A program made the translations under genes and the position numbers. The notes below the pieces were generated by a model that was not told where the DNA came from, made no database searches, and saw nothing but the letters and a program-made list of their open reading frames with translations. From contig JAKPTZ010000108.1 of NCBI GenBank assembly GCA_029555025.1, forward strand, positions 1 through 64,000: DNA of 64,000 nucleotides, read 5' to 3'. This DNA is from Deltaproteobacteria bacterium. GTDB lineage: Bacteria; Myxococcota_A; UBA9042; DTJE01. This document shows, piece after piece, positions 29,880-45,276 of the stretch. Position 1 is the stretch's first letter. Each line of letters starts with the position of its first letter.

Positions 29880-31835
29880 ATGGGCTGGAGTCCCGAAAAG
29901 GCAGCGGCCTTCACGGCGGATCTTCCGCACAGGCCTGGCGTCTATATCATGCGCGACCGGGCCGGGCGGGTGATCTACATCGGCAAGGCGGGAAACCTTC
30001 ATTCCCGGGTCAGCCAGTACTTCAGGGAATCCGGTGACACCAGGCCGTTCGTCGCGATCCTTTCAGAAGTCCTGTACAGGCTGGAAACGGTTGTCACGGC
30101 CACCGAAAAGGAAGCCCTGATCCTTGAAAACGAACTGATCAAGAAGCATCGGCCGCCTTTTAACGTTCTTCTTAAGGATGACAAGGCGTATCTGTACCTG
30201 AGGCTGGATCCCGGGGCCGAATTTCCCAGACTTGAACTCAGCAGGAAAAGGCGCGACGACGGGGCCCTCTACTTCGGCCCGTCGCACTCGGCCCAGGCAA
30301 TACGCCAGACACACCTGATGGTTACCAGGCACTTCGGCCTGCGAACCTGCGCCGACGCGCAGTTCGCAAGCCGCAGGCGCCCATGCATCGAATGGCAGAT
30401 GAAACGGTGCGCCGGGCCCTGCTGCAAGATGGTGACCCGGGAGGGATACCGGGAAAGGGTCGATGCGGCAATCCTCTTCCTCAAAGGCAGGTACCAGGAA
30501 GTGCTGAAGGCACTGACGGCGGGGATGAAAGCGGCGGCGGCGGCCGAAGACTTCGAGGAGGCCGCCCGCCTGCGCGACCAGGTTCGGGCGGTTCAGGACG
30601 CCCTTTCCCGGCAGTCGGTCGTCCTGCCCGGCACGACGGACGTGGACGCGATTGGAATCGCGGCAGCCGGGGATCTGGCCGTGGTCATGATCCTGAGGTT
30701 CGAATCGGGCGTACTGCGCGACCAGGCGCCACTGGTGCTCGACAACGTGGTGGCGCCCGTCGCGGAACTGCTTGAAAGCGTGCTTCTGCAGTTCTATTCG
30801 CGCACCCCGGTGCCGGCCGAAATCCTGGTTCCGGATCACGTCGGGACGGGAACCGGTGACGATCGCCCGCTTGAAGCGCTGGAAAGCCTTCTGGCGGCCA
30901 GGGCCGGCAGGCAGGTTCTCATCAGGACGCCGAAGCGCGGCCGGTCGGCGGACGCTCTGCGGATGGCGAACGACAACGCGGCAGAAACCCTTCGGGCGGC
31001 CATCGAAGGCGCGGGATCCCGGAAAAGGGCGCTTGAACGCCTTGCGGCCACGCTCGGCCTGGATCGGCCGCCGACCAGGATCGAAGGCTTCGACATGAGC
31101 CAGTTCCAGTCCGCGGAGCCGGTCGGATCGATGGTCGTGATGACCGACGGACGCCTCGACAAGAAGTGCTATCGGACGTTTTCCGTGAAATGGGAATCAA
31201 GCCGGGGCGACACAGGGTTCATGACGGAAGTGCTTTCGCGGCGGCTGGCGGATGTCGGCCGGAGCGGCGATGGATCGGACTGCGCGGCCGTGCCAGACCT
31301 GATCATGCTTGACGGGGGACCTTCCCAGCTCATGGCAGCCAGGGCGGTTCTTGACAACCTGGGGCTTCGAATTCCCCTGGTGGCGCTGGCCAAGTCCAGG
31401 GTTGTCGCGATGCCGGGCTCGTCCGTTTCCCATACCCCCGAAAGACTGTTCGTGCCTGCGGACAGCGGGGCGCCGGAATCCCCCGGGCTGCGCCAGGATG
31501 AAAGGGCGTATTTTTCGGACGCGCCGGACGACCTGTGCGACCAGGCCAGGATGCTTGTTCCAAGCCAGAACGATCCCGGGCTTCATCTTCTGATGAGGCT
31601 TCGTGACGAGGCCCACCGATTCGCGATTTCGTTTCACAGGAAGCGGCGTAACCGGAGGGGCCTGGGTTCGATCCTGGACGGGATCAACGGTCTGGGAAAG
31701 AAGCGGCGCACGGCGTTGCTGCGCCATTTCAGGACGGTGGCGGCAATCCGCCAGGCAACACTGGAAGACCTGATGGCGGTACCCGGCATTCCCGCGGCCG
31801 TGGCTGATGCCATTTTCGACAGGATGCACCAATGA
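29880..31835 (+). CDS. uvrC: UvrABC excinuclease subunit C
   Basis: UvrC makes both incisions in nucleotide-excision repair. The ~651-residue protein contains the GIY-YIG nuclease domain ('GVYIMRDRAGRVIYIGKAGNLHSRVSQYF'), 'RRPCIEWQMKRCAGPCC', the UVR motif that binds UvrB ('AAEDFEEAARLRDQVRAVQ'), the RNase H-like second nuclease ('IEGFDMSQFQSAEPVGSMVVMTDG', 'DGGPSQLMAARAVL') and a C-terminal helix-hairpin-helix ('LDGINGLGKKRRTALLRHF', 'VPGIPAAVADAI'). The start could also be 29853. Its stop overlaps the larE start (ATGA). The order uvrC-larE-peptidase is a coupled operon of functionally unlike genes. Confidence 0.95.
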   Translation: MGWSPEKAAAFTADLPHRPGVYIMRDRAGRVIYIGKAGNLHSRVSQYFRESGDTRPFVAILSEVLYRLETVVTATEKEALILENELIKKHRPPFNVLLKDDKAYLYLRLDPGAEFPRLELSRKRRDDGALYFGPSHSAQAIRQTHLMVTRHFGLRTCADAQFASRRRPCIEWQMKRCAGPCCKMVTREGYRERVDAAILFLKGRYQEVLKALTAGMKAAAAAEDFEEAARLRDQVRAVQDALSRQSVVLPGTTDVDAIGIAAAGDLAVVMILRFESGVLRDQAPLVLDNVVAPVAELLESVLLQFYSRTPVPAEILVPDHVGTGTGDDRPLEALESLLAARAGRQVLIRTPKRGRSADALRMANDNAAETLRAAIEGAGSRKRALERLAATLGLDRPPTRIEGFDMSQFQSAEPVGSMVVMTDGRLDKKCYRTFSVKWESSRGDTGFMTEVLSRRLADVGRSGDGSDCAAVPDLIMLDGGPSQLMAARAVLDNLGLRIPLVALAKSRVVAMPGSSVSHTPERLFVPADSGAPESPGLRQDERAYFSDAPDDLCDQARMLVPSQNDPGLHLLMRLRDEAHRFAISFHRKRRNRRGLGSILDGINGLGKKRRTALLRHFRTVAAIRQATLEDLMAVPGIPAAVADAIFDRMHQ

Positions 31836-32671
31836 AAGGCGATCAATCCCGCCTGCCATCGGAAACGGCGGCAAGGCTGGCACTCCTGAGAGAAGACCTG
31901 GCGGCGCGGGACAGGCTTGCCGTCGCGTTTTCCGGCGGCGTCGATTCATCGATGCTGCTTACGGCCGCGGCTTCCGTGAAGGGGCTGGAAGTCATCGCGG
32001 TCACGGCCGTGTCAGAGTTCCTTGCCGGGCGTGAACTTAAGCTGGCGGGGGCCCTTGCGGAAGAACTGGGGGTCAGGCACGTGGTCGCGGAATTTGATCC
32101 GCTCGGGCATCCCGAAATCCGGAAAAATCCGCTGGATCGTTGCTATTACTGCAAGGCTGCGACTTACAGGACCTGCCTTGACGCGGTCGCCCGCCATGGT
32201 TTTACGACAATGGCCGATGGAACGATTGCGGACGATGCCGCGGACTTCCGCCCCGGCCGCAGGGCGGCGACGGAACTCGGGGTGATAAGCCCGCTGGCCG
32301 ATTCCGGGATGACGAAGGCCGATGTCCGTGTGCTTTCACGGGAAATCTTCGGCCTGAAAGGCTGGAACAGGCAATCCGGTGCCTGCCTCGCCAGCCGCTT
32401 CCCGCCCGGAACCGCGATTTCGGCCGGGGCGCTGGCCAGGGTTGAACAGTTGGAAAATGCCCTTCTGGATCTCGGGCTGGACGTGGTGCGGGCCAGGTAT
32501 TTCGGGAACACGGCAAGGATCGAGACCTCTGCCGAAGGCCTGGAACGGCTTGCTGACGCGACCGTCAGGCAGGCTGCCGTGGACGCCGGGATCGGTGCCG
32601 GCTTTTCGGTCGTCGCGGTGGATCCGGAGCCCTACCGGCCTGGACGCCTGAACGGGGAGGCCGCACTATGA
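31832..32671 (+). CDS. larE: LarE-type ATP-dependent sulfur transferase
   Basis: LarE adenylates and sulfurates pyridinium dicarboxylate mononucleotide to build the nickel-pincer cofactor of lactate racemase. The 279-residue protein has the PP-loop 'AFSGGVDSS' (residues 32-40). It carries three cysteines at the positions of interest: Cys104 and Cys107 in 'LDRCYYCKAA' and Cys185 in 'SGACLASRF'. Three-cysteine LarE forms are known to hold an iron-sulfur cluster, whereas single-Cys forms sacrifice the cysteine; the present one fits the three-Cys class. No larA, larB or larC lies nearby, so its partner enzymes are elsewhere or the protein has another role. It overlaps uvrC and the next gene by 4 bases each. 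Confidence 0.85.
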   Translation: MKGDQSRLPSETAARLALLREDLAARDRLAVAFSGGVDSSMLLTAAASVKGLEVIAVTAVSEFLAGRELKLAGALAEELGVRHVVAEFDPLGHPEIRKNPLDRCYYCKAATYRTCLDAVARHGFTTMADGTIADDAADFRPGRRAATELGVISPLADSGMTKADVRVLSREIFGLKGWNRQSGACLASRFPPGTAISAGALARVEQLENALLDLGLDVVRARYFGNTARIETSAEGLERLADATVRQAAVDAGIGAGFSVVAVDPEPYRPGRLNGEAAL

Positions 32672-35031
32672 CGACGGCCGCGATACTGGCGCAACTTCGC
32701 AGAACCGAGGTGCAATGGACCCTGGTTCCCGCGGCGGCCGCGGCCGGATTGCTTTTCGTCCCCGGGTTTGATGTCCTGTCGTTTTATTTCTGCATGCCGA
32801 TGGCCCTGCTGCTGGCGATGGCCGCCGGTTCGGTTACGATTACCGCAGTCTTCCGTGGCAGGGCTGGCGGGGATACCGCCGCCGGGCTGCGACGTGGATT
32901 GCTCCATTCGGCGCTGCTGGGCCTGCCGCCGCTTGCCGTAATCACCGCCGGTCACTTCATCAACGGGCCGTGCGATTACGCTTACGGACTTGTGCATTTC
33001 ATGGCCGGGCCGTTCCTTTCAACCATCATCGGCTCCGGCGTCGCGGCGTCCTGCTCGATCGCTTCGCGAAAGGAATCAAGGGCATCGCGCGCATTCATCG
33101 CGATCTTCATCCTGTCTTTCGGCCCGGCTGCCGCAATCCTCTATTTCACGCCGGCAGTCAGCTTCTTCAACCCGTTCCTGGGGATGTATCCGGGACCGAT
33201 TTACGATGAAATCATCGAAGTCACCCCCGCCTATGTGACGTTCCGCGTCTGGTGCCTGCTCGCGGTGGCTGCCTTCTGGACCCTGGCAAGGGCCACGAAC
33301 CCGGGAGAACCGGGGATGCGGGAAGGTTCGCGGGCAGCGAGGATACTTGTCCCCGCCGGTTTGCTGCTCCTGTGCGTGGCAACTGCATACGGGTGGGGAA
33401 ATTTCAGGTTTCTCGTCACCAGTGGCGATATCCGTCGGGAGTTATCCTTCGTCAGATCCGACAAATGGTGCGTCCTTCATGCCGACGCGTCGTACGCAGC
33501 CAGGGACGGACTTGCGGACGATCTTCTGAAGGACTGCGGCTTCAGGCACAGGCAGACCGCCGAATTCTTCGGCGTGAGTCCGAATCCGCCGGTTAACGTC
33601 TTCCTGTATCGCGATGCCGACCAGAAGGCCAGGCTGATGGGTGCCAGGCACGTGGAAGTCAGCAAGCCCTGGCTCAACGAAATCCATGTAACCGGAATAC
33701 TGCCCGGAGAAATGATCCTGGCCCATGAAATCGCGCATGTTACGGCCGGACGCCTTTCACCGAACCTGCTGGCCATGCCGCTTCGTTTCGGGGTGGTTCC
33801 GGACATGGCCCTGGTCGAGGGTCTTGCGGTGGCCGCCGCCTTCGCGGACGACGGCCCTTCACCGCACGAATGGGCCCTCGCCATGATGCGATCGGGCATG
33901 ACGCCTGACCTGGGGGAGCTTTTCGCGCCGCTTTCCTTCATTACCGGCGGTGCGGCGGCCTCGTACAACACCGCCGGTTCCTTCCTTCATTACGTCCGTC
34001 AGGCACACGGCATGCCGGCAATCCGAGCGCTGGCGCAGGGCCAATCCTTCATCCAGGCCACTGGCCTGGGGCTTGACGCCCTGCAGGTTCGCTGGCAGGA
34101 CTTCCTGACCGACCAACACGGCGCCGAAATGGACGAAGTCCTGAAGATGCGCGCCGCCGCTCGTTTCTCCGACCCCGGCGTCCTTCACAGGAAGTGTCCG
34201 CTGGACGTGGCCCGAAGGCTGCGCGACGCCGCGCAACTCTACGAACGCGGCTGCCTGGAGGAGGCCCTGGGCAAGGTACGCCAGGCCGTCGAACTCGACC
34301 CGATGGATCGTTCTGTGACAAGGCTGGCCGCCAGGATGGAATTCGGACTGGCGCGTGGCCTTGGGGAACATCCCCGATTCATTGCGATGATCGAGGACGT
34401 CCTCCGACCGCCCAACGGCGCCGCATCCATGGCTGATCGAACCGCCGCGGCCGACCTGCTGATTCTGCGGGGCATCAACGACATTGACCGTAACCGCGGC
34501 AACGCAAGTCTTCAAAGGGCTTTCGTGGAACTGCGCGATCTTAAGGCGATGCTGACCCCCGGCGGCGCCATGCGGGGTGTCTGCGCGCGGCTGGCCGCCC
34601 TTGGTGCCAGTCCCCGGGCAGCCTCGGCAATAATCGAGGCGCTTTCGGATCCGCGTCCGTGGGCGGAAGGTGACGCGGGCCGCCTTTACGCGGCCGCTTC
34701 GGAAAGCCCCGGGGAGGCCGTTCTATGGTACCTGGCCGGAAGGGCCGCGTCCCGGGAAGGACTGCCGGGAGCCGCGGTCGAGGCATTCAGGATGGCCATT
34801 GACGCGGGTTTTGAGGAACCTCTTCCCGATTTGGCGGATGAGAGCGCTTCCTGCGCGTCGGACTTCCTGGCAGAAACGCAGAAACTGCTTGGCGCGGCCG
34901 CGTACTGGGCCGGGGATTTCAGGACAGCGACCGAAGCCTTGTCTGGCGCGCTTGAATCGGCACACTTCCAGGGCGATCGACTGGTGATTCTGGAATACCT
35001 TGAAAGAATTAAGCTTGAAGCCCCGCGATAG
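32668..35031 (+). CDS. Membrane-anchored zinc peptidase with TPR-like C-terminus
   Basis: The 787-residue protein has about six hydrophobic spans in residues 15-260, then a soluble part. A zinc-peptidase motif 'ILAHEIAHVTAG' (HEXXH, near residue 355) is followed 26 residues later by 'ALVEGLAVAAAF', whose Glu fits the third ligand of gluzincins (peptidase MA-like). The catalytic domain is preceded by 'VNVFLYRDADQKARLMGA'. Residues ~520-787 are helical and repeat-like ('LYERGCLEEALGKVRQAVELDP' is TPR-like). It probably cleaves or holds an envelope protein. No name is recognised. The ATG overlaps the larE stop, so the three genes are coupled. Confidence 0.7.
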   Translation: MTTAAILAQLRRTEVQWTLVPAAAAAGLLFVPGFDVLSFYFCMPMALLLAMAAGSVTITAVFRGRAGGDTAAGLRRGLLHSALLGLPPLAVITAGHFINGPCDYAYGLVHFMAGPFLSTIIGSGVAASCSIASRKESRASRAFIAIFILSFGPAAAILYFTPAVSFFNPFLGMYPGPIYDEIIEVTPAYVTFRVWCLLAVAAFWTLARATNPGEPGMREGSRAARILVPAGLLLLCVATAYGWGNFRFLVTSGDIRRELSFVRSDKWCVLHADASYAARDGLADDLLKDCGFRHRQTAEFFGVSPNPPVNVFLYRDADQKARLMGARHVEVSKPWLNEIHVTGILPGEMILAHEIAHVTAGRLSPNLLAMPLRFGVVPDMALVEGLAVAAAFADDGPSPHEWALAMMRSGMTPDLGELFAPLSFITGGAAASYNTAGSFLHYVRQAHGMPAIRALAQGQSFIQATGLGLDALQVRWQDFLTDQHGAEMDEVLKMRAAARFSDPGVLHRKCPLDVARRLRDAAQLYERGCLEEALGKVRQAVELDPMDRSVTRLAARMEFGLARGLGEHPRFIAMIEDVLRPPNGAASMADRTAAADLLILRGINDIDRNRGNASLQRAFVELRDLKAMLTPGGAMRGVCARLAALGASPRAASAIIEALSDPRPWAEGDAGRLYAAASESPGEAVLWYLAGRAASREGLPGAAVEAFRMAIDAGFEEPLPDLADESASCASDFLAETQKLLGAAAYWAGDFRTATEALSGALESAHFQGDRLVILEYLERIKLEAPR

Positions 35032-35035
35032 CCTG

Positions 35036-35719
35036 TCAGGCCGACGTGCCCTGACCCCCGGAATCCGGCCGGATGCGCCGTGAAAAAGTGATTACCCCGT
35101 GCGCGACCATGCCGGCCTGGGCCAGCAGGTACATCGCGATCGATACCCAGATCAGGTGCATGTCGGTCCTGAACCGGAGGGCGCCCTCTACCACCGGCCG
35201 CCCCGGAATCTGGTCGAGCAGCACGTACGTCCAGAACGCCGTCAACAGGAGGTTGACCACGAGCGAGCGGAATGCGGCCGCGCGCCGACCGGCCTTCAGC
35301 GCCAGGAAACGCATGGTCAGCACAAGCCACAGAAGCAGCCCCATGAAAACGTACATGTACGCGTATGGAAAGGCCTCGGCAAACACGACCCCGCTCAGGA
35401 CCGCGGTTCCGCCAAGATGCAGGGCAAGCATCAGCCCGACAACGCCCTGGCTGAAAAGATCCGTGACCCGACGGACGCGACCGGCGTCGTTCCTGACCCT
35501 GGACGAAATCGCCTCGCCGGTGCCGCCCACCGCGTCACCGAGTTGCACCGCCGCCTGCATCGCCTTCAACTGGATGGTTGACCTTGTCCTTTCCCAGCCG
35601 GGACTGTCCGGCGGGGATTCCACGCCTTCGTCCCGGTCGCCGCCCGGATCGGGCATGGAATCCGGCGGCCCGTCCGCGTCGTCCATGTGATCCGGAACCC
35701 CGTTTGAAGAATCAGTCAT
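35036..35719 (-). CDS. Small membrane protein with acidic N-terminus, unknown function
   Basis: The 227-residue protein starts with a Pro/Asp-rich region ('DDADGPPDSMPDPGGDRDEG', ~1-45). An amphipathic stretch and four hydrophobic segments follow (~90-115, 120-140, 155-175, 190-210). No known domain is recognised. The ATG at 35719 is chosen because GGGGAG lies nine bases before it and it overlaps the stop of the upstream lipoprotein gene by eight bases; a GTG at 35743 is an alternative. It is probably co-expressed with that Cys-rich lipoprotein and may be its membrane partner, which is an inference from position only. It is convergent with the peptidase gene, four bases away. Confidence 0.6.
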   Translation of the reverse strand: MTDSSNGVPDHMDDADGPPDSMPDPGGDRDEGVESPPDSPGWERTRSTIQLKAMQAAVQLGDAVGGTGEAISSRVRNDAGRVRRVTDLFSQGVVGLMLALHLGGTAVLSGVVFAEAFPYAYMYVFMGLLLWLVLTMRFLALKAGRRAAAFRSLVVNLLLTAFWTYVLLDQIPGRPVVEGALRFRTDMHLIWVSIAMYLLAQAGMVAHGVITFSRRIRPDSGGQGTSA

Positions 35720-37196
35720 GAAGAGCGACTCCCCGATCGTCACAAGTCCCCGAAACCACTATGTCGTCAATATAAATGCCTTCATAGGGGGCCGAAGCAT
35801 AAACCACCGAATCGTATTCGAAAACAAGCTGGACGACCTGATCGTCCCATTGTTCAAGGGAAACCGCGCTTTCAGCGGCCGGCGGGAACTCCACAAATCC
35901 GTCGCCGGAGTTGAATTTCTCCATCTGGCTGGTCGAAAACACCTTTGTTTCGCCACCCGTGGTTCTGACATATACGGAAACCACGTCATTGAACCTGCTG
36001 AACTCGTCGGTGTTCTTCCACATCATGAACCGCAGATGCGGCGACCTTGTCATCATCAGCTTGATCGGGCCTGTCACCGCCCTTGAACCGGTTTTCATGC
36101 TTGAATCGCCGCGACACAGACCGGTTTCCTCATCCCCGAAGAACATGGAACTGGTTCCGGAACCGGACCGGCGCGTGGAGACGTGCCATTCCGGCGACGG
36201 CGAATAGCCAGGGCCCGGCATCGGAACGACTTCCATGCCGAAATCGCCTTCGAAATCCCGCGAATACACGACAGGCTCGCAGCAGTTGGAATCGGTCCTG
36301 CGCTCGCACGTTCCGGACGGCAGGGCACCCCTGTTGCAGAAAAGGCATTCATCGCCGCACTGTTCATCGTCCGTGCAGCAACCTGGAATCGCGTCGAAAC
36401 TGCAGCTTCCGTCGTCACAGGTTGCCGAAAGGCACGGCTCGGCCAAGCAGTCGGACGACGTTTCGCAGCAGTCCGGAATCCGTTGATAGTCACACTCGCC
36501 GTCGTCCTGGCCGGACGGTATGACGCAGACGCCCTGCATGCATGGGGCATCGGTCTGCTGGCAGTCCCTGTCGCGCTTGCAGCAGAGAATTTCGCGGGCG
36601 CAGACGCCGGTGGGCGGCGACGCGGACTCATCGGTTATCCGGCAATAATCCCTGGTGCATCTGTTGGCATCGGCACAATCCGTTTCAAGCGTGCAGCAGA
36701 TCCCGGCGCCGGAACCCGACTTGTCCCACCTGTGCGAGCACAGGAGATTCTCCTGGCATGTATCGACGGTGCAGACGTCACCGTCGTCGCAGTCCAGATG
36801 GGAACGGCAGCATGGTTCAATCGGAGCCGCGATCCGGCACGTCCTCGTCTTCAGGTCGCACCGGTCGTCCTTCGTGCATGGGTCACCGTCGTCGCAGTCG
36901 TCATCCGAACCGCAGCAGCCCGGCGTCCTTTCGAAGACGCATCCGCCGTCGGCGCAGGAATCCGTTGTGCACGTGTCGTTGTCGTCGCAGACAATCGGAT
37001 CAATCCTGCAAAGCCCCCTGTCGCAGCGTTCGACAGTGCATGGGTCGTCGTCATCACACTGGAATGAACTGACGCACCTGGTTCCGACCGGCACGTCCGG
37101 TTCAACCACCGAATCGGTAACGTTGTCGGCCGCAGTGCACGAAACCATTGCGACCAGGCATGCCGTCCATATGCAGACCAGCAATTCACGACTCAT
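35712..37196 (-). CDS. Cysteine-rich repeat lipoprotein
   Basis: The 494-residue protein starts 'MSRELLVCIWTACLVAMVSC', a lipoprotein-type signal peptide. Residues ~40-300 hold about ten modules of the 'CDDDDPCTVERCDRGLC', 'CDDNDTCTTDSCADGGC' and 'CDDGDPCTKDDRC' kind, each followed by 'PGCC' or 'PCC'. The C-terminal ~190 residues ('SRDFEGDFGMEVVPMPG', 'IYIDDIVVSG') look like a beta-sandwich carbohydrate- or ligand-binding module. The ATG at 37196 has GGAGG; the longer frame lacks a signal. An extended -10 (TGGTATTAT on the minus strand, about 37241-37249) lies upstream. It shares its repeat type with the lipoproteins at 2710-7835. Confidence 0.72.
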   Translation of the reverse strand: MSRELLVCIWTACLVAMVSCTAADNVTDSVVEPDVPVGTRCVSSFQCDDDDPCTVERCDRGLCRIDPIVCDDNDTCTTDSCADGGCVFERTPGCCGSDDDCDDGDPCTKDDRCDLKTRTCRIAAPIEPCCRSHLDCDDGDVCTVDTCQENLLCSHRWDKSGSGAGICCTLETDCADANRCTRDYCRITDESASPPTGVCAREILCCKRDRDCQQTDAPCMQGVCVIPSGQDDGECDYQRIPDCCETSSDCLAEPCLSATCDDGSCSFDAIPGCCTDDEQCGDECLFCNRGALPSGTCERRTDSNCCEPVVYSRDFEGDFGMEVVPMPGPGYSPSPEWHVSTRRSGSGTSSMFFGDEETGLCRGDSSMKTGSRAVTGPIKLMMTRSPHLRFMMWKNTDEFSRFNDVVSVYVRTTGGETKVFSTSQMEKFNSGDGFVEFPPAAESAVSLEQWDDQVVQLVFEYDSVVYASAPYEGIYIDDIVVSGTCDDRGVALHD

Positions 37197-37327
37197 GCCC
37201 TGGCCCTCCCGATCCGAGGTTACAACTTGAAACGGATGTGATAATACCACGTGTGCCCTGGCAGCACCGAATCGCGCATCTTTTGGTGAAGGCTGCCGGC
37301 CGTTCCTGGAAAACCCGGTGATTTCAG

Positions 37328-38500
37328 ATGATTGTTTCGTTCTTCAAAATCGATTCCCGACAATTTGACACCTCGGAGGCGACAAGGCTTGCCCAGTCCA
37401 TCGAGGAAGCCGGACGCGTCGGCAGGGCGCTGCTTTTCTTCCCGGAAGGCATCCCGGATTCCCCGTCGTTCCTTCCGTGGCTGAAAGGCCTGTGTCGCGC
37501 CGTCGTAATCGCCGTGCGCGGGGGAATAAGCACTCCCGACCCGGTCGAGACGCTGGTGCGTGCGGGCGTCACGACAGTCGTCATTGAAGAAGCAACGCCT
37601 TTCGAGACCCTGTCCAGGATGCCCCGGGATCGGACGGTCGTGGCGCTGGATCCCGACAACTACCGGCAGTACGCGGATGTCAGCGCCGTCGTGCAGAAGA
37701 TGACCGACAAGATGAACTCCCTGGCCCCATGGGTATCCGGCTTCATGATCGACGTTGACTGGTCCCCGGAAGAGGTCAACCAGCTCCCGCTCGATACGAT
37801 TCGACGCTTCCGCGACGCCGCCGGTTCCTGCCTGTGGGTAAGGCACCCGACACTGACCGCCGACGACACGCCGGCATTCGACGAACTCGGAATCGACGCG
37901 GTGGTTCACGACGGCGACATTCGGGTGTATGCCGACGCCTTCATCAGAAGCCTGAACTTCCACGAAGGCCTGATTCCAACCGTGGCCGTCGACAAGTACG
38001 GCCAGGTTCTGCGGGTGGCCTGGTCGTCTCCCCGGAGCCTGTCGGACAGCATCATCAGGGGAACGTCCGGATACTGCGGTCGGAACGGCGTCCACAGCGA
38101 CCTTTCGACCGGCGTCGGCCGGCTGCTGCGGGTAATTCCGGACGAGGAAAGGGCGGCTCTGATGTTCGTCGTAAGGCCGCCAGAACAGAACGGAACCAGA
38201 TTTTCGTACTCGTCCTTCGGTCCCGGCGGTCGCGAATTCGGCCTGCAGCGGCTATTCGACATCATTCACGGACTGAAGGAACGACCGAGGCCGGGTTCGT
38301 ACACGTCCTTCCTGTTCGAACGCGAGGATCGCATTCCGCGCAAGCTGAACGAGGAAGTCCGCGAGCTGCTGGAGGCCGGCACAAGGGACGAGATAGCCTG
38401 GGAAGCGGCGGACGTCCTGTTCTTCCTGTTCGCCTACCTCGCAGGAACGGATGTTCCGCTCGACGACGTCGTTGCGGAACTGATGGGCCGCAAGCAATAA
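37328..38500 (+). CDS. HisA-HisI-HisE-type fusion with degenerate HisA and HisI parts
   Basis: The 390-residue protein has three regions. Residues 1-205 look like a decayed HisA/HisF barrel ('VIAVRGGISTPDPVETLVRAGVTTVVIEEA', 'GFMIDVDWSPEEVNQLPLDTI'). Residues ~210-298 follow HisI ('HEGLIPTVAVDKYGQVLRVAWSSPRSL') but lack its metal-binding signature: the D-C-D-x-D stretch is 'PDEERA' and the two later zinc cysteines are replaced. Residues ~305-390 match HisE ('SYTSFLFEREDRIPRKLNEEVREL', 'EIAWEAADVLFFLFAYL') with its Glu/Asp metal ligands kept. The order resembles the N-terminal part of yeast HIS4. It is likely a phosphoribosyl-ATP pyrophosphatase with two non-catalytic domains. No other his genes are nearby. 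Confidence 0.65.
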   Translation: MIVSFFKIDSRQFDTSEATRLAQSIEEAGRVGRALLFFPEGIPDSPSFLPWLKGLCRAVVIAVRGGISTPDPVETLVRAGVTTVVIEEATPFETLSRMPRDRTVVALDPDNYRQYADVSAVVQKMTDKMNSLAPWVSGFMIDVDWSPEEVNQLPLDTIRRFRDAAGSCLWVRHPTLTADDTPAFDELGIDAVVHDGDIRVYADAFIRSLNFHEGLIPTVAVDKYGQVLRVAWSSPRSLSDSIIRGTSGYCGRNGVHSDLSTGVGRLLRVIPDEERAALMFVVRPPEQNGTRFSYSSFGPGGREFGLQRLFDIIHGLKERPRPGSYTSFLFEREDRIPRKLNEEVRELLEAGTRDEIAWEAADVLFFLFAYLAGTDVPLDDVVAELMGRKQ

Positions 38501-38501
38501 A

Positions 38502-39695
38502 TCAGGAAAGATCCATCGGATCGCCGTCAACGGTCGGGCCGACGCCGAAAAGGGCCGCGACGGTCGCGCCGATATCGGCGAACGTCGTCCTCGGGCCGAC
38601 ATCGCGACCTGAACCGGGGGCAATCCCATGATGCCAGGCCAGGAAAGGGACATATTCCCTGGTGTGATCGGTTGACCACGCGGCGGTCGGGTCGCATCCG
38701 TGATCCGCGGTAACGATAAGCATGCCTTCCGGGCCTACGGCCTCCATCAGCCCTGGAACGAACGAATCGGCTTCCATCAGGCCGGCGGCGTATCCTTCGG
38801 CATTGCGGCGATGGCCCCACACCATGTCGAAATCGACCAGGTTGGTAAAAACCAGTCCACGATCGAGATCCCTGATCTGCCGGATCGACTGGATCAGCCC
38901 ATCGCGGTTTCCTTCGGTGTGAATCGATTCGGTGACGCCCCTTCCCGCAAAGATGTCGTGAATCTTGCCGACTCCGACTACCGGGATGCCCGCGCCGGAA
39001 AGCATGTCCAGAACCGTCGGGCCGGGAGGGGTCATCGAGAAGTCGCGGCGGTTGTAAGTCCTTGTATAGGAACCGGGACTGCCGACGAACGGCCTGGCGA
39101 TGACCCTGGCGACGTTGTGGGCGTCCAGTATTTCCCTGGCGACCATGCAGGCGGAATAAAGACGTTCAAGGGGAACCACGTCCTCATGGGCGGCAATCTG
39201 GAACACCGAATCGGCCGATGTATACACGATCAGACTGCCGGTCCTTTCGTGTTCCGGCCCCAGATCCCGGATGATGTCGGTGCCGCTCGCCGAATAATTC
39301 CCGATCGTTTTGAAACCGCTTCTCCTTTCAAATTCAGCAATTACGTCAGGCGGAAATCCGGTATCGGTGAAGGCCTTGAATGCCCCTTTCATCACCAGGC
39401 CGGCCATTTCCCAGTGCCCGGTCGTGGTGTCCTTTCCCGGCGACCTTTCGGCCAGACGGGCGAAGTGGCCGTCCGGTCCGGGCTCCCGGGGAATGCCGGG
39501 CACATCGACAAGGTGACCAAGTCCCAGCCTCGCCAGGTGCGGCATCCGAAAATCGCCGACAGCCAGTGCCGAATGAAGAAGCGTGTTGGAGCCTTCGTCG
39601 CCGTAAAGATGCGCATCAGGCAGGGCGCCGATCCCGACGCTGTCGAGAACCAGCCAGAGCAACTTGCGAATTTGATGGGTTGTCACAGTTTTCAT
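38502..39695 (-). CDS. deoB: Phosphopentomutase
   Basis: DeoB interconverts (deoxy)ribose 1- and 5-phosphate in nucleoside salvage. The 397-residue protein has the alkaline-phosphatase-superfamily metal motifs: 'LVLDSVGIGALPDA' near residue 14, 'GKDTTTGHWEMAG' with the catalytic Thr, 'NLVDFDMVWGHRRN', 'TADHGCDPT' and 'STDHTREYVPF'. Length is normal. The ATG at 39695 has a GGGG site; the longer frame lacks resemblance. A plus-strand promoter for the next gene overlaps its start region. Its stop is one base from that of the divergently unrelated His fusion gene. Confidence 0.95.
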   Translation of the reverse strand: MKTVTTHQIRKLLWLVLDSVGIGALPDAHLYGDEGSNTLLHSALAVGDFRMPHLARLGLGHLVDVPGIPREPGPDGHFARLAERSPGKDTTTGHWEMAGLVMKGAFKAFTDTGFPPDVIAEFERRSGFKTIGNYSASGTDIIRDLGPEHERTGSLIVYTSADSVFQIAAHEDVVPLERLYSACMVAREILDAHNVARVIARPFVGSPGSYTRTYNRRDFSMTPPGPTVLDMLSGAGIPVVGVGKIHDIFAGRGVTESIHTEGNRDGLIQSIRQIRDLDRGLVFTNLVDFDMVWGHRRNAEGYAAGLMEADSFVPGLMEAVGPEGMLIVTADHGCDPTAAWSTDHTREYVPFLAWHHGIAPGSGRDVGPRTTFADIGATVAALFGVGPTVDGDPMDLS

Positions 39696-39707
39696 GCCCC
39701 ATATAAT
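39680..39707 (+). promoter_or_regulatory. Predicted strong promoter for the lipoprotein/purH transcript
   Basis: TTGTCA (39680-39685), a 16-base spacer and a perfect TATAAT (39702-39707) point to the lipoprotein gene at 39773. The -35 overlaps the start of deoB on the other strand, so the two transcripts may interfere. The lipoprotein, purH and purD may be read from it. Confidence 0.55.
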
Positions 39708-39772
39708 CGTGCCATGATTCGAGGTGGTCAAGGCCGCCCGGCGTTGACCGGAAAGTTTTGCAGGAGGCTCAG

Positions 39773-40609
39773 ATGAACGTTTTCAAGGTCGGGATCCTTC
39801 TCGTGATGGCTGTTGCTGCAACGGCGTTGATGTCGGCCGGGTGTTCCCGGAAGGCCGCCGAACCGGCACCGGCCGCCGAACCGGCACCGGCCGCCGAACC
39901 GGCACCGGCCCCGGTGGCCGTGCAGCCGCCCGCCGAGGTCAAGGCTCCCGAGCCGGTGTGGCCGTCGCCGACCCCGGAACACTGGCTGATCGTCAACGAT
40001 TACGAAAAGCCGGCCGACCTTGTCGAGGCGCCGATCAATCCGAAGACCGGCAAACCGGGCAAAAAGGAAAACCTGAACCGGAACCTGCAGGACGGTGAGT
40101 GGGGCGACGTCGGGTTCAACGGTGGAAAGTGCCGCCTGGAACAGGTCAGGGACGGACAGAACAATGTCCTGAAGGTCACTTACAGCATGCCGACCGAAAC
40201 CTCGGAATGCGGTACCTACGAATACCTGATGCCGTACGTCGAAAAGAAGGTCAAGGGCAAGCTGATCAAGAATTATCCGCAGTTCTTCGATCTGCGTCCG
40301 TACGACAGAATCGCGGCGATGGTGAAGTCGGGCGACGACAAGGAACATAACCTGAAACTGCACCTGACCGAACTGGATCCCTACGGAAGCCAGTTGCAGG
40401 GATATGTCAGCCCGACGAAGAACATCGTCGCGGGAAAGGACTGGCAGCGCGTGGAATTCAAGATTTCCGACACCCTGCACGAATTCTTCGACCCCGCCCA
40501 CGCTAAGGCAATCGGCCTGCGGATCAGGTTCCAGGAACAGGACAACCGCAACGACGCCGGCATCGTGCTGTTCGATAACATCACTCTCATCAAGAAGACC
40601 GGCGAGTAG
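39773..40609 (+). CDS. Lipoprotein with AEPAP repeat linker and beta-sandwich-like domain
   Basis: The 278-residue protein has a type II signal peptide (lipobox MSAGC) and an Ala/Glu/Pro linker made of repeated 'AAEPAP' units. A ~220-residue domain follows ('HWLIVNDYEKPADLVEAP', 'LRPYDRIAAMVKSGDDKEHNLKLHLTE', 'GIVLFDNITLIKK'), which resembles the beta-sandwich, ligand-binding CIA30/galactose-binding type ('...VLFDNITL' ending). No catalytic motif is seen. The ATG at 39773 has GGAGG six bases upstream. It lies 42 bases before purH, perhaps in one transcript. A weak hairpin (40599-40613) followed by T's at 40624-40628 could end part of the transcripts. Confidence 0.7.
   Translation: MNVFKVGILLVMAVAATALMSAGCSRKAAEPAPAAEPAPAAEPAPAPVAVQPPAEVKAPEPVWPSPTPEHWLIVNDYEKPADLVEAPINPKTGKPGKKENLNRNLQDGEWGDVGFNGGKCRLEQVRDGQNNVLKVTYSMPTETSECGTYEYLMPYVEKKVKGKLIKNYPQFFDLRPYDRIAAMVKSGDDKEHNLKLHLTELDPYGSQLQGYVSPTKNIVAGKDWQRVEFKISDTLHEFFDPAHAKAIGLRIRFQEQDNRNDAGIVLFDNITLIKKTGE
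39854..39907 (+). repeat. Three perfect 18-base tandem repeats coding AAEPAP
   Basis: The unit gccgccgaaccggcaccg occurs three times in a row at 39854-39871, 39872-39889 and 39890-39907. It encodes the linker behind the lipid anchor. Perfect identity suggests recent slippage and possible length variation between strains. Confidence 0.9.
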
Positions 40610-40651
40610 CCGGACTGTCCATCTTTTTCATGCGTCAGCGAGGTTTTTTGA

Positions 40652-42196
40652 ATGAAACGCGCAGTAATCAGTGTTTCCGATAAGACGGGCGTGGTCGATT
40701 TCGCACGTGGCCTGGTTGCCCTGGGCTACCAGATAATTTCGACCGGCGGCACCTCGAAGACCCTTCGCGAGGAAGGCCTGCAGGTGACGGACGTTTCGGA
40801 CGTGACGGGATTCCCGGAGTGCCTGGAAGGCCGGGTCAAGACGCTTCACCCCGCGGTGATGGCTGGCATTCTCGCCAGGGACACGGAAGACCACAGGAAG
40901 ACAATCGCGGATCTCGGCATCGAGATGATCGACATCGTCGCGGTCAACCTTTACCCGTTCCAGGCGACCATCGCGAAAGCCGGCGTGACCGAGGCCGAGG
41001 CCATCGAGAAGATCGACATCGGCGGCCCGTCCATGATCAGGGCGGCGGCGAAGAATTCGGATCGCGTGACGGTCATCGTTGACCACGCCGACTACAAGCC
41101 GGTGCTTGAAGAACTGGCCAGGGACGGAAAGACGTCCGACCAGACCCGCCGACGGCTGATGGTGAAGGTATTCGCCATGACGGCCGCATACGACATGGCG
41201 GTCGCGGGACACTTCGGCAGGATCGACGGCGCGCTGCCCGACGTCGCCTTCACGGGCGGGGTGAAGGTCAGCGAGTTGCGTTACGGCGAAAACGGCCACC
41301 AGAGGGCCGCGGTGTATGTCCCCGCCGGAACCGTCCCGAAGGGGATGATCGGTGCGCGACAGCTTCAGGGAAAGGAACTTTCGTACAACAATTACGTCGA
41401 TATGGACGCTGCCTGGGCGCTTGTGCGCGAGTTCGATGACAGGCCGGCCGTCAGCATCATCAAGCACACCAACCCCGCCGGCTTCGGCTGGGATCGGGAA
41501 AGCCTTCACCACGCGTATGAAAAGGCCCTGGCGACCGACCCGGTTTCCGCTTTCGGCGGAATCGTGGCGCTGAACCGGGAAGTCGATGAAAAGCTGGCCG
41601 AACGCCTGAACGAGCACTTCTATGAAGTTATCATCTGCCCCAGCCTGACCGCCGGGGCACGCGACTTCTTCGCGAAGAAGAAGAACCTTCGCGTCATGGA
41701 AATGGGCGACGACTTCTTCCAGCCGATGCCCGATCTGGTTTTCAAGCAGGTCAGCGGCGGCATGCTCGTTCAGGACAACGACCCGCCCGCAAACGAGGTT
41801 TCAGGCGCCCGCGTGGTGACGAAACGCCAGCCCACCCGGGAAGAGTGGGACGCCCTCGAGTGCGCATGGAAGGTTTCGAAGCACGTCAAGAGCAATGCGA
41901 TAGTGTTCTGCTTCAACGACAGGACCGGCGCGGTCGGGGCCGGACAGATGAGCCGCGTCGATTCCGCCAGGCTTGCCGTCATGAAGGCGGCCGACCGCAA
42001 GATCGACCTGAACGGCACGGTGGTCGGTTCCGACGCCTTCTTCCCGTTCGCCGACGGGGTCGAGGAAATCGCGAAGGCCGGGGCCACGGCCATCGCCCAG
42101 CCGGGCGGTTCAATCCGTGATCAGGAAGTCATCGACGCGGCCGACAGGATGGGGCTTGCCATGGTCTTCACGGGCACCAGGCACTTCCGCCACTGA
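40652..42196 (+). CDS. purH: Bifunctional AICAR transformylase/IMP cyclohydrolase
   Basis: PurH carries out the last two steps of IMP synthesis. The 514-residue protein has the cyclohydrolase N-terminal domain ('AVISVSDKTGVVDFARGL', 'GGTSKTLREEG', 'GRVKTLHPAVMAGIL', 'IDIGGPSMIRAAAKN') and the transformylase domain ('LRYGENGHQRAAVY', 'LSYNNYVDMDAAW', 'IKHTNPAGF', 'SNAIVFC', 'GAGQMSRVDSARLA', 'DAFFPFADGVEEIAKAG', 'AIAQPGGSIRDQEVI'). Length is normal. A GCGAGG site lies eight bases before the ATG. purD follows 51 bases later, so the two form a purine unit. Confidence 0.97.
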   Translation: MKRAVISVSDKTGVVDFARGLVALGYQIISTGGTSKTLREEGLQVTDVSDVTGFPECLEGRVKTLHPAVMAGILARDTEDHRKTIADLGIEMIDIVAVNLYPFQATIAKAGVTEAEAIEKIDIGGPSMIRAAAKNSDRVTVIVDHADYKPVLEELARDGKTSDQTRRRLMVKVFAMTAAYDMAVAGHFGRIDGALPDVAFTGGVKVSELRYGENGHQRAAVYVPAGTVPKGMIGARQLQGKELSYNNYVDMDAAWALVREFDDRPAVSIIKHTNPAGFGWDRESLHHAYEKALATDPVSAFGGIVALNREVDEKLAERLNEHFYEVIICPSLTAGARDFFAKKKNLRVMEMGDDFFQPMPDLVFKQVSGGMLVQDNDPPANEVSGARVVTKRQPTREEWDALECAWKVSKHVKSNAIVFCFNDRTGAVGAGQMSRVDSARLAVMKAADRKIDLNGTVVGSDAFFPFADGVEEIAKAGATAIAQPGGSIRDQEVIDAADRMGLAMVFTGTRHFRH

Positions 42197-42247
42197 CGGA
42201 TGCCGGACGAGATCCATGCCATTTCTTTTGCTGAAGGAGTCCCGGGC

Positions 42248-43540
42248 ATGAAAATCCTGGTTGTCGGTAACGGCGGGCGCGAGCACGCAATGGCCCGGAA
42301 GCTGGCCCAGAGTCCAGGGGCAACCGTCTTCATCACCACTGGAAACGCGGGAACGGACGAAGTCGCCACACCGATCCCGATCAAGCCGACCGACGTCGAT
42401 GCCATCGTCCGCTTCGCCGCCGCCGAAAGGTTCGATCTCGTTGCCGTCGGTCCGGAAATCCCCCTGGCCGCCGGGCTTGCCGACAGGCTCGTCGAGGCCG
42501 GCGTAACGGTTTTCGGACCGGTCGCGGCAGCGGCCCGGCTCGAGGCTTCGAAGGCGTTTTCCCACGAGATCATGGATGCGGCCGGCGTGCCTTCGGCGCG
42601 GACGCATACTTTTACCGATCTGGACGCGGCCCTTGATCACCTGTCCACATGTCCGGTGCCGGTGGTGGTCAAGGCTGACGGACTTGCCGCCGGAAAGGGG
42701 GTCGTCGTCGCCATGACCAGGGATCAGGCCCTTGACGCCGCCAGATCCTTCATGGCGGACAGGACGATGGGCGACGCCGGCGACATGCTGGTGATCGAGG
42801 AATTCCTTCAGGGCGAGGAAGCCTCGTTCATGTGCCTGACCGACGGCAGGACGATCAGGCCGCTTGCCTCGGCACGCGACCACAAGCGCATCTTCGACGG
42901 CGACAGGGGACCGAATACCGGCGGGATGGGGGCATACAGCCCGACGCCGCTGGTCGGGCCGGACAACAGCCCGGAACTTGTCGAGAAGGTCATGCGGCCC
43001 GTTATCGACGAACTGGCGCGACGCGGGATCGAATACCGCGGGGTTCTTTACGCCGGCCTGATGATGACTGCGGACGGGCCGAAGGTGCTCGAGTTCAACT
43101 GCAGGTTCGGGGACCCCGAGACGCAGCCGGTTCTGACAAGGTTCCGCGGCGACCTGGCCGCGACGATGATCGCGACGGCCACCGGCAGGCTCGAGGAAGC
43201 TGTTTTCGATTTCGACAGCCGCGTGGCGGTTTGCGTGGTCGCCGCGGCGCCGGGCTACCCGGGCAAGGTCTCGACAGGCCAGGCGATTTCCGGCCTTCGG
43301 GACGCCGCATCGATACCCGACGTCTTCATTTATCACGCCGGCACTTCAAAGGGCCCGGATTCAATGCCGGTCGTCTCCGGGGGACGGGTGCTTGCGGTTA
43401 CCGCGCTGGCGGACGACTTCGCCGCCGCCCGCGAACTTGCGTACCGGGCAATGGATCGGATCGACTTCGCGGGAATCCAGTTCCGCCGCGATATCGCGGC
43501 GTCCGTTTCAACGCATCGCGAAAACACCGGCAAACCCTGA
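42248..43540 (+). CDS. purD: Phosphoribosylamine-glycine ligase
   Basis: PurD joins glycine to phosphoribosylamine with ATP (GAR synthetase). The 430-residue protein has 'MKILVVGNGGREHAMARKL', the ATP-grasp motifs 'PVVVKADGLAAGKGVVVA', 'LVIEEFLQGEEASFMCLTDG', 'DHKRIFDGDRGPNTGGMGAYSP' and 'EFNCRFGDPETQ'. Length is normal. The ATG at 42248 with AAGGAG upstream gives the family-typical start; the longer frame from 42200 does not. It follows purH. The 6S-like RNA begins about 60 bases after its stop. Confidence 0.97.
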   Translation: MKILVVGNGGREHAMARKLAQSPGATVFITTGNAGTDEVATPIPIKPTDVDAIVRFAAAERFDLVAVGPEIPLAAGLADRLVEAGVTVFGPVAAAARLEASKAFSHEIMDAAGVPSARTHTFTDLDAALDHLSTCPVPVVVKADGLAAGKGVVVAMTRDQALDAARSFMADRTMGDAGDMLVIEEFLQGEEASFMCLTDGRTIRPLASARDHKRIFDGDRGPNTGGMGAYSPTPLVGPDNSPELVEKVMRPVIDELARRGIEYRGVLYAGLMMTADGPKVLEFNCRFGDPETQPVLTRFRGDLAATMIATATGRLEEAVFDFDSRVAVCVVAAAPGYPGKVSTGQAISGLRDAASIPDVFIYHAGTSKGPDSMPVVSGGRVLAVTALADDFAAARELAYRAMDRIDFAGIQFRRDIAASVSTHRENTGKP

Positions 43541-43566
43541 TTAAACCTGCATTTCCCCGAACCGGT

Positions 43567-43595
43567 TTGCATCATCGGGAACAAGGTCTTATACT
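43567..43595 (+). promoter_or_regulatory. Promoter of the candidate 6S RNA
   Basis: TTGCAT (43567-43572), a 17-base spacer and TATACT (43590-43595) make a good sigma-70-type promoter. The predicted start of transcription, about seven bases on, falls exactly on A43602, the first base of the closing stem of the RNA. Confidence 0.6.
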
Positions 43596-43601
43596 GGCTT
43601 C

Positions 43602-43798
43602 AGGTGCCCTGCGGAATGCGCGGGAGGCAATCACTTTTTTGGTTGAATCCCTTGCTTTGAAATCCGGGCGTCGCCCCTGACCGCCGTGTGCATGCCAGCC
43701 AATCCCGGCAGGAAGCCTGAAGCGGTTACCGTGACACCCCACCTGTTTGGAAAATGGGTTTCAATTCATTGTCTCCAGACGATTCAGGCGGGGCACCT
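43602..43798 (+). ncRNA. ssrS: Candidate 6S RNA (SsrS-like), 197 nt
   Basis: The gap 43541-43961 has no convincing protein gene but folds into a long rod. The ends pair 43602-43611 with 43789-43798 (10 bp, one G-U). Then 43623-43631 pairs with 43768-43776 (9 bp, one G-U), and 43641-43651 with 43756-43766 (10 of 11). A large open bubble follows (43652-43677 and 43729-43755), then a terminal stem-loop starting 43678-43684 with 43722-43728. This closing stem, central bubble and terminal hairpin, the ~197-nt length and a promoter firing at the first paired base are the features of 6S RNA, which binds sigma-70 RNA polymerase. A small GGGC-GUC-GCCC hairpin lies in the 5' side of the bubble. Sequence identity to known 6S RNAs could not be tested. 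It might instead be another structured RNA or the leader of the next gene. Confidence 0.6.
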
Positions 43799-43961
43799 CC
43801 ACCCACCACTTCCCGGACGGCCCGACGCGGCCGCTGATGGATTCCGGGGATCTCATCTATACATGGCGGGCCATTTTGCGTTCGTGATATCCTGCGCCTT
43901 GCAGCAGTGATCTGCCCTGGCCCGGGAGGGGCCGGTATCCAAATCAATTCCGGGGGGCTGG

Positions 43962-44699
43962 ATGGAGACCAGGGAATACGAGCTCATGGCGGCGGCGGAA
44001 GACGTCCACCCCTGGTTCATCCAGTTGAGGACGATAATCCGGGAAAGCTTTGAGTCGGTCGGAGTCCGCCCGGAATGGCACGTCCTCGACGTCGGCTGCG
44101 GAACCGGCGGAACAATGAAGAGCCTGGCCGGGACCTGCCGATTCACCGGACTTGACGCCAGCCCGCTTGCGGCGGAAATGGCCGAAAGGATATCCGGCGC
44201 GAAGGTCGTGGTGGCCGACGCAACCAGAATGCCTTTCGCGGATCGGACGTTCGACGCGGTGATTGCCAGCCACATACTGGAGCACATCGACGACGACGGC
44301 GCGGCGGTGGCGGAAATCCGCCGCGTGCTGAAGCCCGGCGGACCACTGGTGGTGCTGGTTCCGTGCCACCAGTTCATGTACAACCATCACGACAGGGCGC
44401 TTCATCACGTCAGGCGTTACTCACGCAGGGATTTCATCGAACTGCTTGAACAAAACGGGTTCACGCCGCAAAAAATCATCTGGACAAACCCGATTATGTA
44501 TCCCCCAACCGCGGCGGCACGGATTGTTTCGAGGATTCTCCGGCCGGCGGACGGCGCGGGCGATGGGCGTGGCAGCGATACGACGGCCAGACTCGGGCTT
44601 GCGAGCCATCTGGTTTCGGCGATCGCATCGATCGAGGTGCGCCTGATGTGGAAGATCCCCGCCCCGTTCGGGGTCGGGCTGCTGGTACTGGCCCGTTGA
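43962..44699 (+). CDS. Class I SAM-dependent methyltransferase
   Basis: The 245-residue protein has the SAM-binding motif I 'VLDVGCGTGGTMKSL' near residue 42, the acidic residue after strand 2 ('FTGLDASP'), 'VVVADATRMPFADRTFDAVIASHILEHIDDD' and 'EIRRVLKPGGPLVVLVPC'. This is the methyltransferase type 11 (UbiE-like) pattern. The C-terminal part ('RALHHVRRYSRRDFIELLEQNGF') suggests a small-molecule or lipid substrate, but this cannot be named. A GGGGGG site precedes the ATG. It lies between the 6S-like RNA and a PilZ gene. Confidence 0.85.
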   Translation: METREYELMAAAEDVHPWFIQLRTIIRESFESVGVRPEWHVLDVGCGTGGTMKSLAGTCRFTGLDASPLAAEMAERISGAKVVVADATRMPFADRTFDAVIASHILEHIDDDGAAVAEIRRVLKPGGPLVVLVPCHQFMYNHHDRALHHVRRYSRRDFIELLEQNGFTPQKIIWTNPIMYPPTAAARIVSRILRPADGAGDGRGSDTTARLGLASHLVSAIASIEVRLMWKIPAPFGVGLLVLAR

Positions 44700-44786
44700 T
44701 AAGACGGCCTGCGTGGATTATGCTTGCCGATGTGCCTGACCGGCCACCCACGGGAAGATGGCGGCCGACTCGCAAAGGGGTTCATC

Positions 44787-45137
44787 TTGGCAGCCGAAAA
44801 AAGAACTCAATCAAGATTCCACACGCGGATTTTCTGCGTTTTCAAGAACGACCTGAACCTGGACGAGACCGAAGTCCTGATGCTGAACATGGGTTCCGGG
44901 GGCGCATTCATCAACACCGACAGCCCCGCGCCGCCGGGAACCCCGGTAACGCTTCGAATGTACCTTAAACCGGACTCGGAACCGCTTTCAATAAGCGCCG
45001 AAGTCGTCTGGTGGAGAACGAACGCCAGGGAGGGCACCCCCGGGATGGGCGTGAAGTTTTCCAGGGTTGGAAAAGACGACCTCGAAGCCATCAAGGCATT
45101 CATAGAAAACCTGATCGAAGACGACCTGTTCCAGTGA
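44787..45137 (+). CDS. PilZ-domain protein (c-di-GMP-binding type)
   Basis: The 116-residue protein has the PilZ beta-barrel pattern: 'SRFHTRIFCVF' (Arg-rich start), 'LNMGSGGAFINTDSPAPPGTPVTLRMYL' (the D/N-x-S-x-x-G-like turn), 'ISAEVVWWR' and 'GMGVKFSRV'. The N-terminal RxxxR motif is only partly kept (R-F-H-T-R). A TTG start at 44787 with AAAGGGG upstream gives a compact protein; a longer start at 44724 is possible. Single-domain PilZ proteins of this kind are common in Myxococcota. c-di-GMP binding is likely but not certain. An HD-GYP protein is encoded at 59876-61096. Confidence 0.78.
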   Translation: MAAEKRTQSRFHTRIFCVFKNDLNLDETEVLMLNMGSGGAFINTDSPAPPGTPVTLRMYLKPDSEPLSISAEVVWWRTNAREGTPGMGVKFSRVGKDDLEAIKAFIENLIEDDLFQ

Positions 45138-45276
45138 AACCAGCCACGCCAATTCGGCGCGCCACCGAACCGTGAAAACAATCGCCCGCCGCAACGGCGT
45201 CGAACCTGCCCGTCCGGCGCGGCACCGACTCCATCAACCTGTATGCCTGCTGCGCGAAACGACCCGGGACAGGCCG

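Follow-up and report, generated by a model that had tools for sequence, protein, structure and literature searches.

The window analysed here is a stretch of 64,000 nucleotides from a draft Myxococcota genome (contig JAKPTZ010000108.1, positions 1 to 64,000 of the forward strand). Positions 37328-38500 on the plus strand encode a degenerate HisA-HisI-HisE fusion protein of 390 amino acids. The reading frame starts with ATG and contains no internal stop. We call this gene type A. A divergent intergenic region of 77 bp (37251-37327) separates it from the gene of a Cys-rich, probably secreted protein of 512 amino acids (35712-37250, minus strand). A predicted membrane protein of 235 amino acids is encoded at 35036-35743 (minus strand). 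On the other side lie the phosphopentomutase gene deoB (38502-39731, minus strand; NF003766 486 bits, TIGR01696 425 bits) and purH and purD (40652-43540, plus strand). Hence the gene is located outside a his operon, as an earlier note on this DNA had stated.

All of these neighbours are conserved. Wherever contigs allow, related genomes show the same order: purD-purH-lipoprotein, deoB, membrane protein-Cys-rich protein, HisA-HisI-HisE fusion. The Cys-rich gene, for example, is syntenic in G001-G004, G006 and G009-G012. In the window and in G001, the block of membrane protein, Cys-rich protein and fusion is inverted as a unit.

A few other features of the window are worth recording. The Cys-rich protein contains repeated CDDxDxCTxDxC motifs. 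Directly downstream of purD there is a 6S RNA (43603-43798, plus strand; RF00013, 72 bits, above the gathering score), the only RNA match between 34000 and 46000. A PP-loop ATP pyrophosphatase, which from its motif we take to be LarE-like, is encoded at 31832-32671 (plus strand); in G005 and G006 it directly follows the fusion gene. There is no PADLOC match, and we rejected an anti-phage role.

Domain structure and residues of the fusion protein

The protein consists of three domains, all encoded on the plus strand. Residues 1-212 (37328-37963) form a HisA/HisF-like (beta/alpha)8 barrel, recognized by its AF2 strands, by Foldseek matches to HisA and by its motifs. Residues 213-303 (37964-38236) form a HisI (PRA-CH)-like domain, from which the Zn and Mg ligands and the phosphate-binding motifs are absent. 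Residues 304-390 (38237-38497) form a HisE (PRA-PH) all-alpha pyrophosphohydrolase domain, which has kept its metal ligands and in which Arg316 is replaced by Leu.

The AF2 model, computed from an alignment of 25 relatives, is confident over the full length (pLDDT 88, pTM 0.83). It shows eight alternating strands (2-7, 33-38, 61-65, 83-87, 103-107, 138-142, 168-172, 190-194), then a HisI-like beta domain, then the HisE helices. In a Foldseek search of the PDB the model matches HisIE (6j22/6j2l) at E 7e-10, and HisA (5l6u and others) at E 1e-6. Solved HisIE chains can be aligned to residues 213-388. The domain order proposed in the earlier note thus agrees with profile matches, predicted fold and Foldseek, and both the HisA and the HisI fold are present in the model.

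Profile searches grade the three domains differently. By sequence, the last domain belongs to the HisE family (Pfam PF01503: E=6e-13, 49.4 bits against a cut-off of 21.3; NCBIfam TIGR03188: 57.5 bits against 42.7). The HisIE model NF002747 aligns to residues 205-390 with 57.1 bits, under its cut-off of 187, and judged by that cut-off the protein is not a HisIE member. PF01502 (HisI) does not match the protein. PF00977 finds mere traces of a HisA/HisF barrel (14.3 bits against 23.6). By the criteria we tested, the protein falls outside HisIE, HisI and HisA.

An alignment of the window protein with 36 other sequences shows which residues have been lost. In the HisI domain, CGRNG-VHSDLSTG stands where working copies have YSRSR..WVKGETSGN, and DEERAAL stands in place of DCDRDAL, so that D-C-D-R-D is lost. 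GTRFSYSSF replaces CHKGTYTCF, and with it the later Cys pair is gone. Hence none of the features expected of a PRA-CH (D-C-D-x-D, the C-H-x(5)-C ligands, SRSR and WxKGETSG) is left. In the barrel, the Asp motif of the first strand is lost, VRGGIS takes the place of the full GGGIR loop and EEAT the place of GTAA, and the GG of strand 7 and the loop of strand 8 are missing. The barrel fold is present, but model score, Asp and the GGGIR, GTAA and AGG loops all speak against a ProFAR isomerase. That HisA and HisI are degenerate, as the earlier note had read from the sequence, is therefore borne out by lost motifs and by profile scores alike.

The HisE domain, in contrast, retains E342, E343, E346, E359, D362, the SYT loop and the C-terminal R388. 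Four of these residues (E343, E346, E359 and D362) are invariant in the 13 type-A copies and in 19 working relatives. By position they equal Glu214, Glu217, Glu234 and Asp237, the metal ligands of Medicago HISN2 (PMC8102479). S324 and T326 likewise equal Ser195 and Thr197, which bind phosphate in that enzyme (PMC8102479). From these ligands we infer that the HisE domain is catalytic; the note had also called it apparently working because its Glu/Asp ligands are intact.

Two substitutions set the window's genus apart. An Arg is found at one HisE site in 30 of 32 aligned sequences; in the window's genus this residue is Leu316. The replaced Arg is probably Arg183 of Medicago HISN2, matched by motif and not by structure. 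Arg183 contacts a phosphate that the authors take as marking the N1-phosphoribosyl group (PMC8102479). The second substitution, Thr349 to Glu, creates the pattern E-E-x-x-E-x-x-E.

Distribution, decay and selection in the family

Our family sample consists of 13 draft Myxococcota genomes, G000 to G012, where G000 is the genome of the window (completeness 97.6% for G000, 86% for G001 and 89% for G006). The type-A gene occurs in all 13 and its frame is open in all of them. Among 52 genomes of the class, the close type-A HisE type is limited to this family.

The genomes fall into three states. In the first (G004, G007, G010) the type-A copy has an intact HisI domain. In G004 and G007 the intact gene lies between hisF and hisD, with hisG and hisB in the cluster. 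The his operon of G004 begins, with hisG, where the lone fusion begins elsewhere, divergent from the Cys-rich gene. In the second state (G003, G005, G006, G008, G009, G011, G012) a degenerate type-A copy is accompanied by a second fusion with intact HisI. On one contig with this second fusion are hisG, hisB, hisF and hisD in five of the seven genomes; in G003 and G008 the cluster is split at contig ends. In the third state (G000, G001, G002) the degenerate type-A copy is alone.

In G010, residues 1-104 of hisG are joined to pieces of hisF in a chimeric reading frame, followed by an intact fusion and an N-terminal remnant of hisD (L046:8242-10376). Unless this is an assembly artefact, it is apparently a his operon caught collapsing, with the fusion surviving. 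The family thus shows stages of operon shrinkage: a complete operon, remnants on both sides and a single gene.

In the three draft genomes of the third state, profile searches detected no PF01502, PF00815, PF01634 or PF00475 and no HisF. In a control set of 14 genomes each of these searches gave 13 or 14 positives, which makes the absence informative within the limits of the draft assemblies. No intact hisI was thus detectable elsewhere in the genome of the window, where the earlier note had advised to look for one. PF01634, and with it a source of PR-ATP from HisG, is present in the histidine-making relatives. The "regulatory PRA-PH" that the note had considered is unlikely in a genome in which no hisG, hisB, hisD, hisI or hisF can be detected.

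Working HisA-HisI-HisE fusions are found, for example, at L032:7063-9056, L044:7599-9596 and L043:1498-3628. Model scores identify the separate barrel gene that adjoins them as HisF, and in most genomes of the family the fused barrel is the only strong HisA. Hence the fused barrel is probably the sole ProFAR isomerase.

G006 shows how two fusions can complement each other. Its second fusion (L037:7938-8957) is cut down to HisA-HisI, with HisE cleanly absent. The protein ends right after HisI (…CHRDTRTCWDRDVGGRNG), and its stop codon overlaps the start codon of hisD. We found no remnant of HisE in the his cluster of this genome. Apart from a MazG, the degenerate type-A copy is all that PF01503 matches in G006. 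Because the second fusion has no HisE, the degenerate type-A copy is the sole candidate for the HisE of a pathway that is otherwise present, although a separate HisE may have been missed since the draft is 89% complete. Two copies of one fusion enzyme appear to have divided the work of its domains between them. G006 is the best evidence that in histidine-making relatives the type-A HisE is likely to act on PR-ATP, in step 2.

Decay is not equal across the domains. SRSR/KGETSG and D-C-D-x-D are gone from all ten degenerate type-A copies, and the later HisI Cys pair is still there in six of them. The HisA loops are mostly kept in the degenerate copies of G005, G006, G011 and G012. This pattern indicates that HisI function was lost first, and that the barrel decayed later and unevenly across copies. 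Since the decay is common to ten genomes, a sequencing error, which the note had named as a check to be made through homologues, is ruled out.

A tree built from full-length sequences groups all ten degenerate copies together (99/97), with the three intact type-A copies as their sister group. The tree thus favours a HisI loss that happened once; with the HisI columns dropped this is still favoured, but not firmly. Within the degenerate clade, mean identity is 43% for the barrel, 39% for HisI and 74% for HisE. For degenerate pairs, ω (pooled dS) ranges from 0.02 to 0.06 in HisE, from 0.11 to 0.43 in HisI and from 0.08 to 0.32 in the barrel, with dS near saturation in several pairs. G011 and G012 allow a direct comparison between copies: in the degenerate copy ω is 0.272 for HisI and 0.049 for HisE, whereas the working copy has the opposite pattern, with 0.033 for HisI and 0.149 for HisE. 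In other working enzymes HisE ω lies between 0.02 and 0.39. HisE in the degenerate copies is hence among the more strictly constrained, but still within the normal range. Selection shows that the sequence of HisE matters, which is short of showing that catalysis matters.

What the HisE domain may do in the window's genus

We propose the following explanation, to which we assign a probability of roughly 0.6. The window gene would be the last member of an ancestral his operon, in which it encoded a HisA-HisI-HisE enzyme with three functions, covering steps 2-4 of histidine synthesis. Most of the family carries a second his cluster with its own HisA-HisI-HisE fusion, the rest of the operon at the first site being gone. 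The type-A HisI domain would have decayed, then the barrel, and the gene would have become a HisE specialist next to the second fusion. In the window's genus, where the whole pathway is undetectable, HisE is kept under strong purifying selection and would most likely act as a Mg-dependent pyrophosphohydrolase. Because HisG is absent from G000 and G001, we infer for these two a nucleotide other than PR-ATP as substrate. The dead barrel and HisI domain would be kept as a structural platform.

A stronger form of this explanation we hold tentatively, at somewhat less than even odds. It says that HisE has turned into a dedicated pyrophosphohydrolase whose specificity has changed (Arg316 to Leu, Thr349 to Glu), which is required apart from histidine and for which the dead domains are structural. 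A HisE-only tree places the genus without the pathway on a long stem (0.50) with short tips. This would fit a role that changed and then came under constraint again, but it is suggestive only. General clean-up of nucleoside triphosphates is not an obvious gap for HisE to fill, because MazG proper is present separately in genomes that carry the type-A gene. For the window's genus, the "repurposed nucleotide pyrophosphatase" of the earlier note is favoured as the likelier reading.

Alternatively, step 2 of histidine synthesis is the only role the domain ever had, and in species without the pathway the gene is a leftover that has yet to decay. Division of labour accounts for its retention in the relatives, and in G002 pathway loss is plausibly recent, since its sister G008 has the pathway. 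However, G000 and G001 are both without the pathway, and they are not close: overall identity is 60% and dS is about 1.3. HisI and the barrel have diverged between them, yet HisE is 91% identical (ω 0.06). The dN intervals, with that of HisE not overlapping the others, are 0.034-0.127 for HisE, 0.329-0.498 for the barrel and 0.396-0.737 for HisI. Only independent recent losses in G000 and G001 could rescue the leftover, and we consider it unlikely.

The strong constraint on HisE could also stem from binding surfaces, if the domain were a non-catalytic nucleotide sensor or a subunit of a complex. An invariant segment specific to type A, around PGSYxxFLFExxDRIPRKLxEE, lies outside the metal ligands. 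However, the clade's intact enzymes already contain this segment. Every metal ligand is kept, and G006 seems to need the type-A HisE as its sole HisE. A sensor or subunit is thus rather improbable.

The neighbourhood of the gene suggests yet another substrate. In the window's genus HisE might clear an AICAR-related or other nucleotide of the purine pathway, such as ZTP, as deoB, purH and purD are near the gene in the window, G001, G002, G003, G005, G006, G009 and G012. Yet this proximity may be inherited synteny, with genes on the other strand in between, and a search of window positions 34000-46000 found no riboswitch for purines or Z-nucleotides. We regard this as very improbable. Finally, a decaying pseudogene, which two domains without their catalytic residues might suggest, is ruled out by frames that are open in 13 of 13 genomes and by dN/dS: HisE ω is 0.02-0.06, ω of the barrel and HisI is also below 1, and the full-length fold is confident.

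HisE is usually regarded as a single-purpose histidine enzyme. Its preservation where no histidine pathway is detectable raises a testable question: what does HisE do without HisG? Annotation as "phosphoribosyl-ATP pyrophosphatase" could wrongly assign a part of histidine synthesis to such bacteria.

Comparison with known systems

HisE belongs to a superfamily with MazG and dimeric dUTPase, all-alpha enzymes that convert nucleoside triphosphates to monophosphates and PPi. The same chemistry would be expected of the window protein, which scores under the PF03819 (MazG) cut-off (18.6 bits against 22).

The best Foldseek match is HisIE (Shigella 6j22/6j2l; Medicago HISN2 7bgm), which shares with the window protein the HisI-HisE order and the HisE metal ligands. 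The window protein differs in its additional N-terminal HisA-like barrel, in a HisI domain without Zn/Mg ligands or phosphate motif, and in a genome where no his pathway is detectable.

Yeast HIS4 consists of an N-terminal domain of unknown function, HisI, HisE and HisD (PMC1963479). It has the HisI-HisE order of the window protein, but its HisI is intact and the window protein stops after HisE, with no C-terminal HisD. The working bacterial fusions and a group of Pirellulaceae proteins align with the HisI-HisE part of HIS4, and the working fusions share with it a DRPDG linker and an RRKGDAKP tail. Compared with the barrel, the N-terminus of HIS4 (from an approximate query sequence) does not rise above shuffled controls with either profile. 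Hence the resemblance to HIS4 drawn in the earlier note stands for HisI-HisE in the working relatives, but in the barrel it is not significant. That the N-terminal domain of HIS4 could be a HisA remnant is a lead that we do not claim.

The Pirellulaceae/Mariniblastus proteins (L062:5635-6726 and L063-L067) combine an intact HisI-HisE part with an N-terminal domain that is shortened; L062 adjoins hisF. They are possibly a bridge to fungal HIS4. As an intermediate between the HIS4 N-terminus and the barrel (hhalign P 0.008, probability 5%) a Pirellulaceae protein of this kind is only a lead, and its AF2 model is of low confidence (pLDDT 37). The fusion is absent from 78 other genomes sampled from its class; being so rare, it was probably acquired horizontally.

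Proteins with HisA, HisI and HisE activities have been mentioned for some Gammaproteobacteria and Spirochaetia (PMC8102479). A multidomain histidine protein of Acanthamoeba has ProFAR isomerase, PRA-CH and PRA-PH in the same order as the window protein; it differs in that all its domains are described as enzymatic and are fused further to other his enzymes (PMC6029752). In the literature we searched, no degenerate fusion of this kind is described in which HisE alone survives. The working HisA-HisI-HisE fusions of Myxococcota are homologous to the window protein over its full length and have an identical domain order. Unlike the window protein, they keep the HisA and HisI motifs, and the separate barrel next to them is HisF in the clusters checked.
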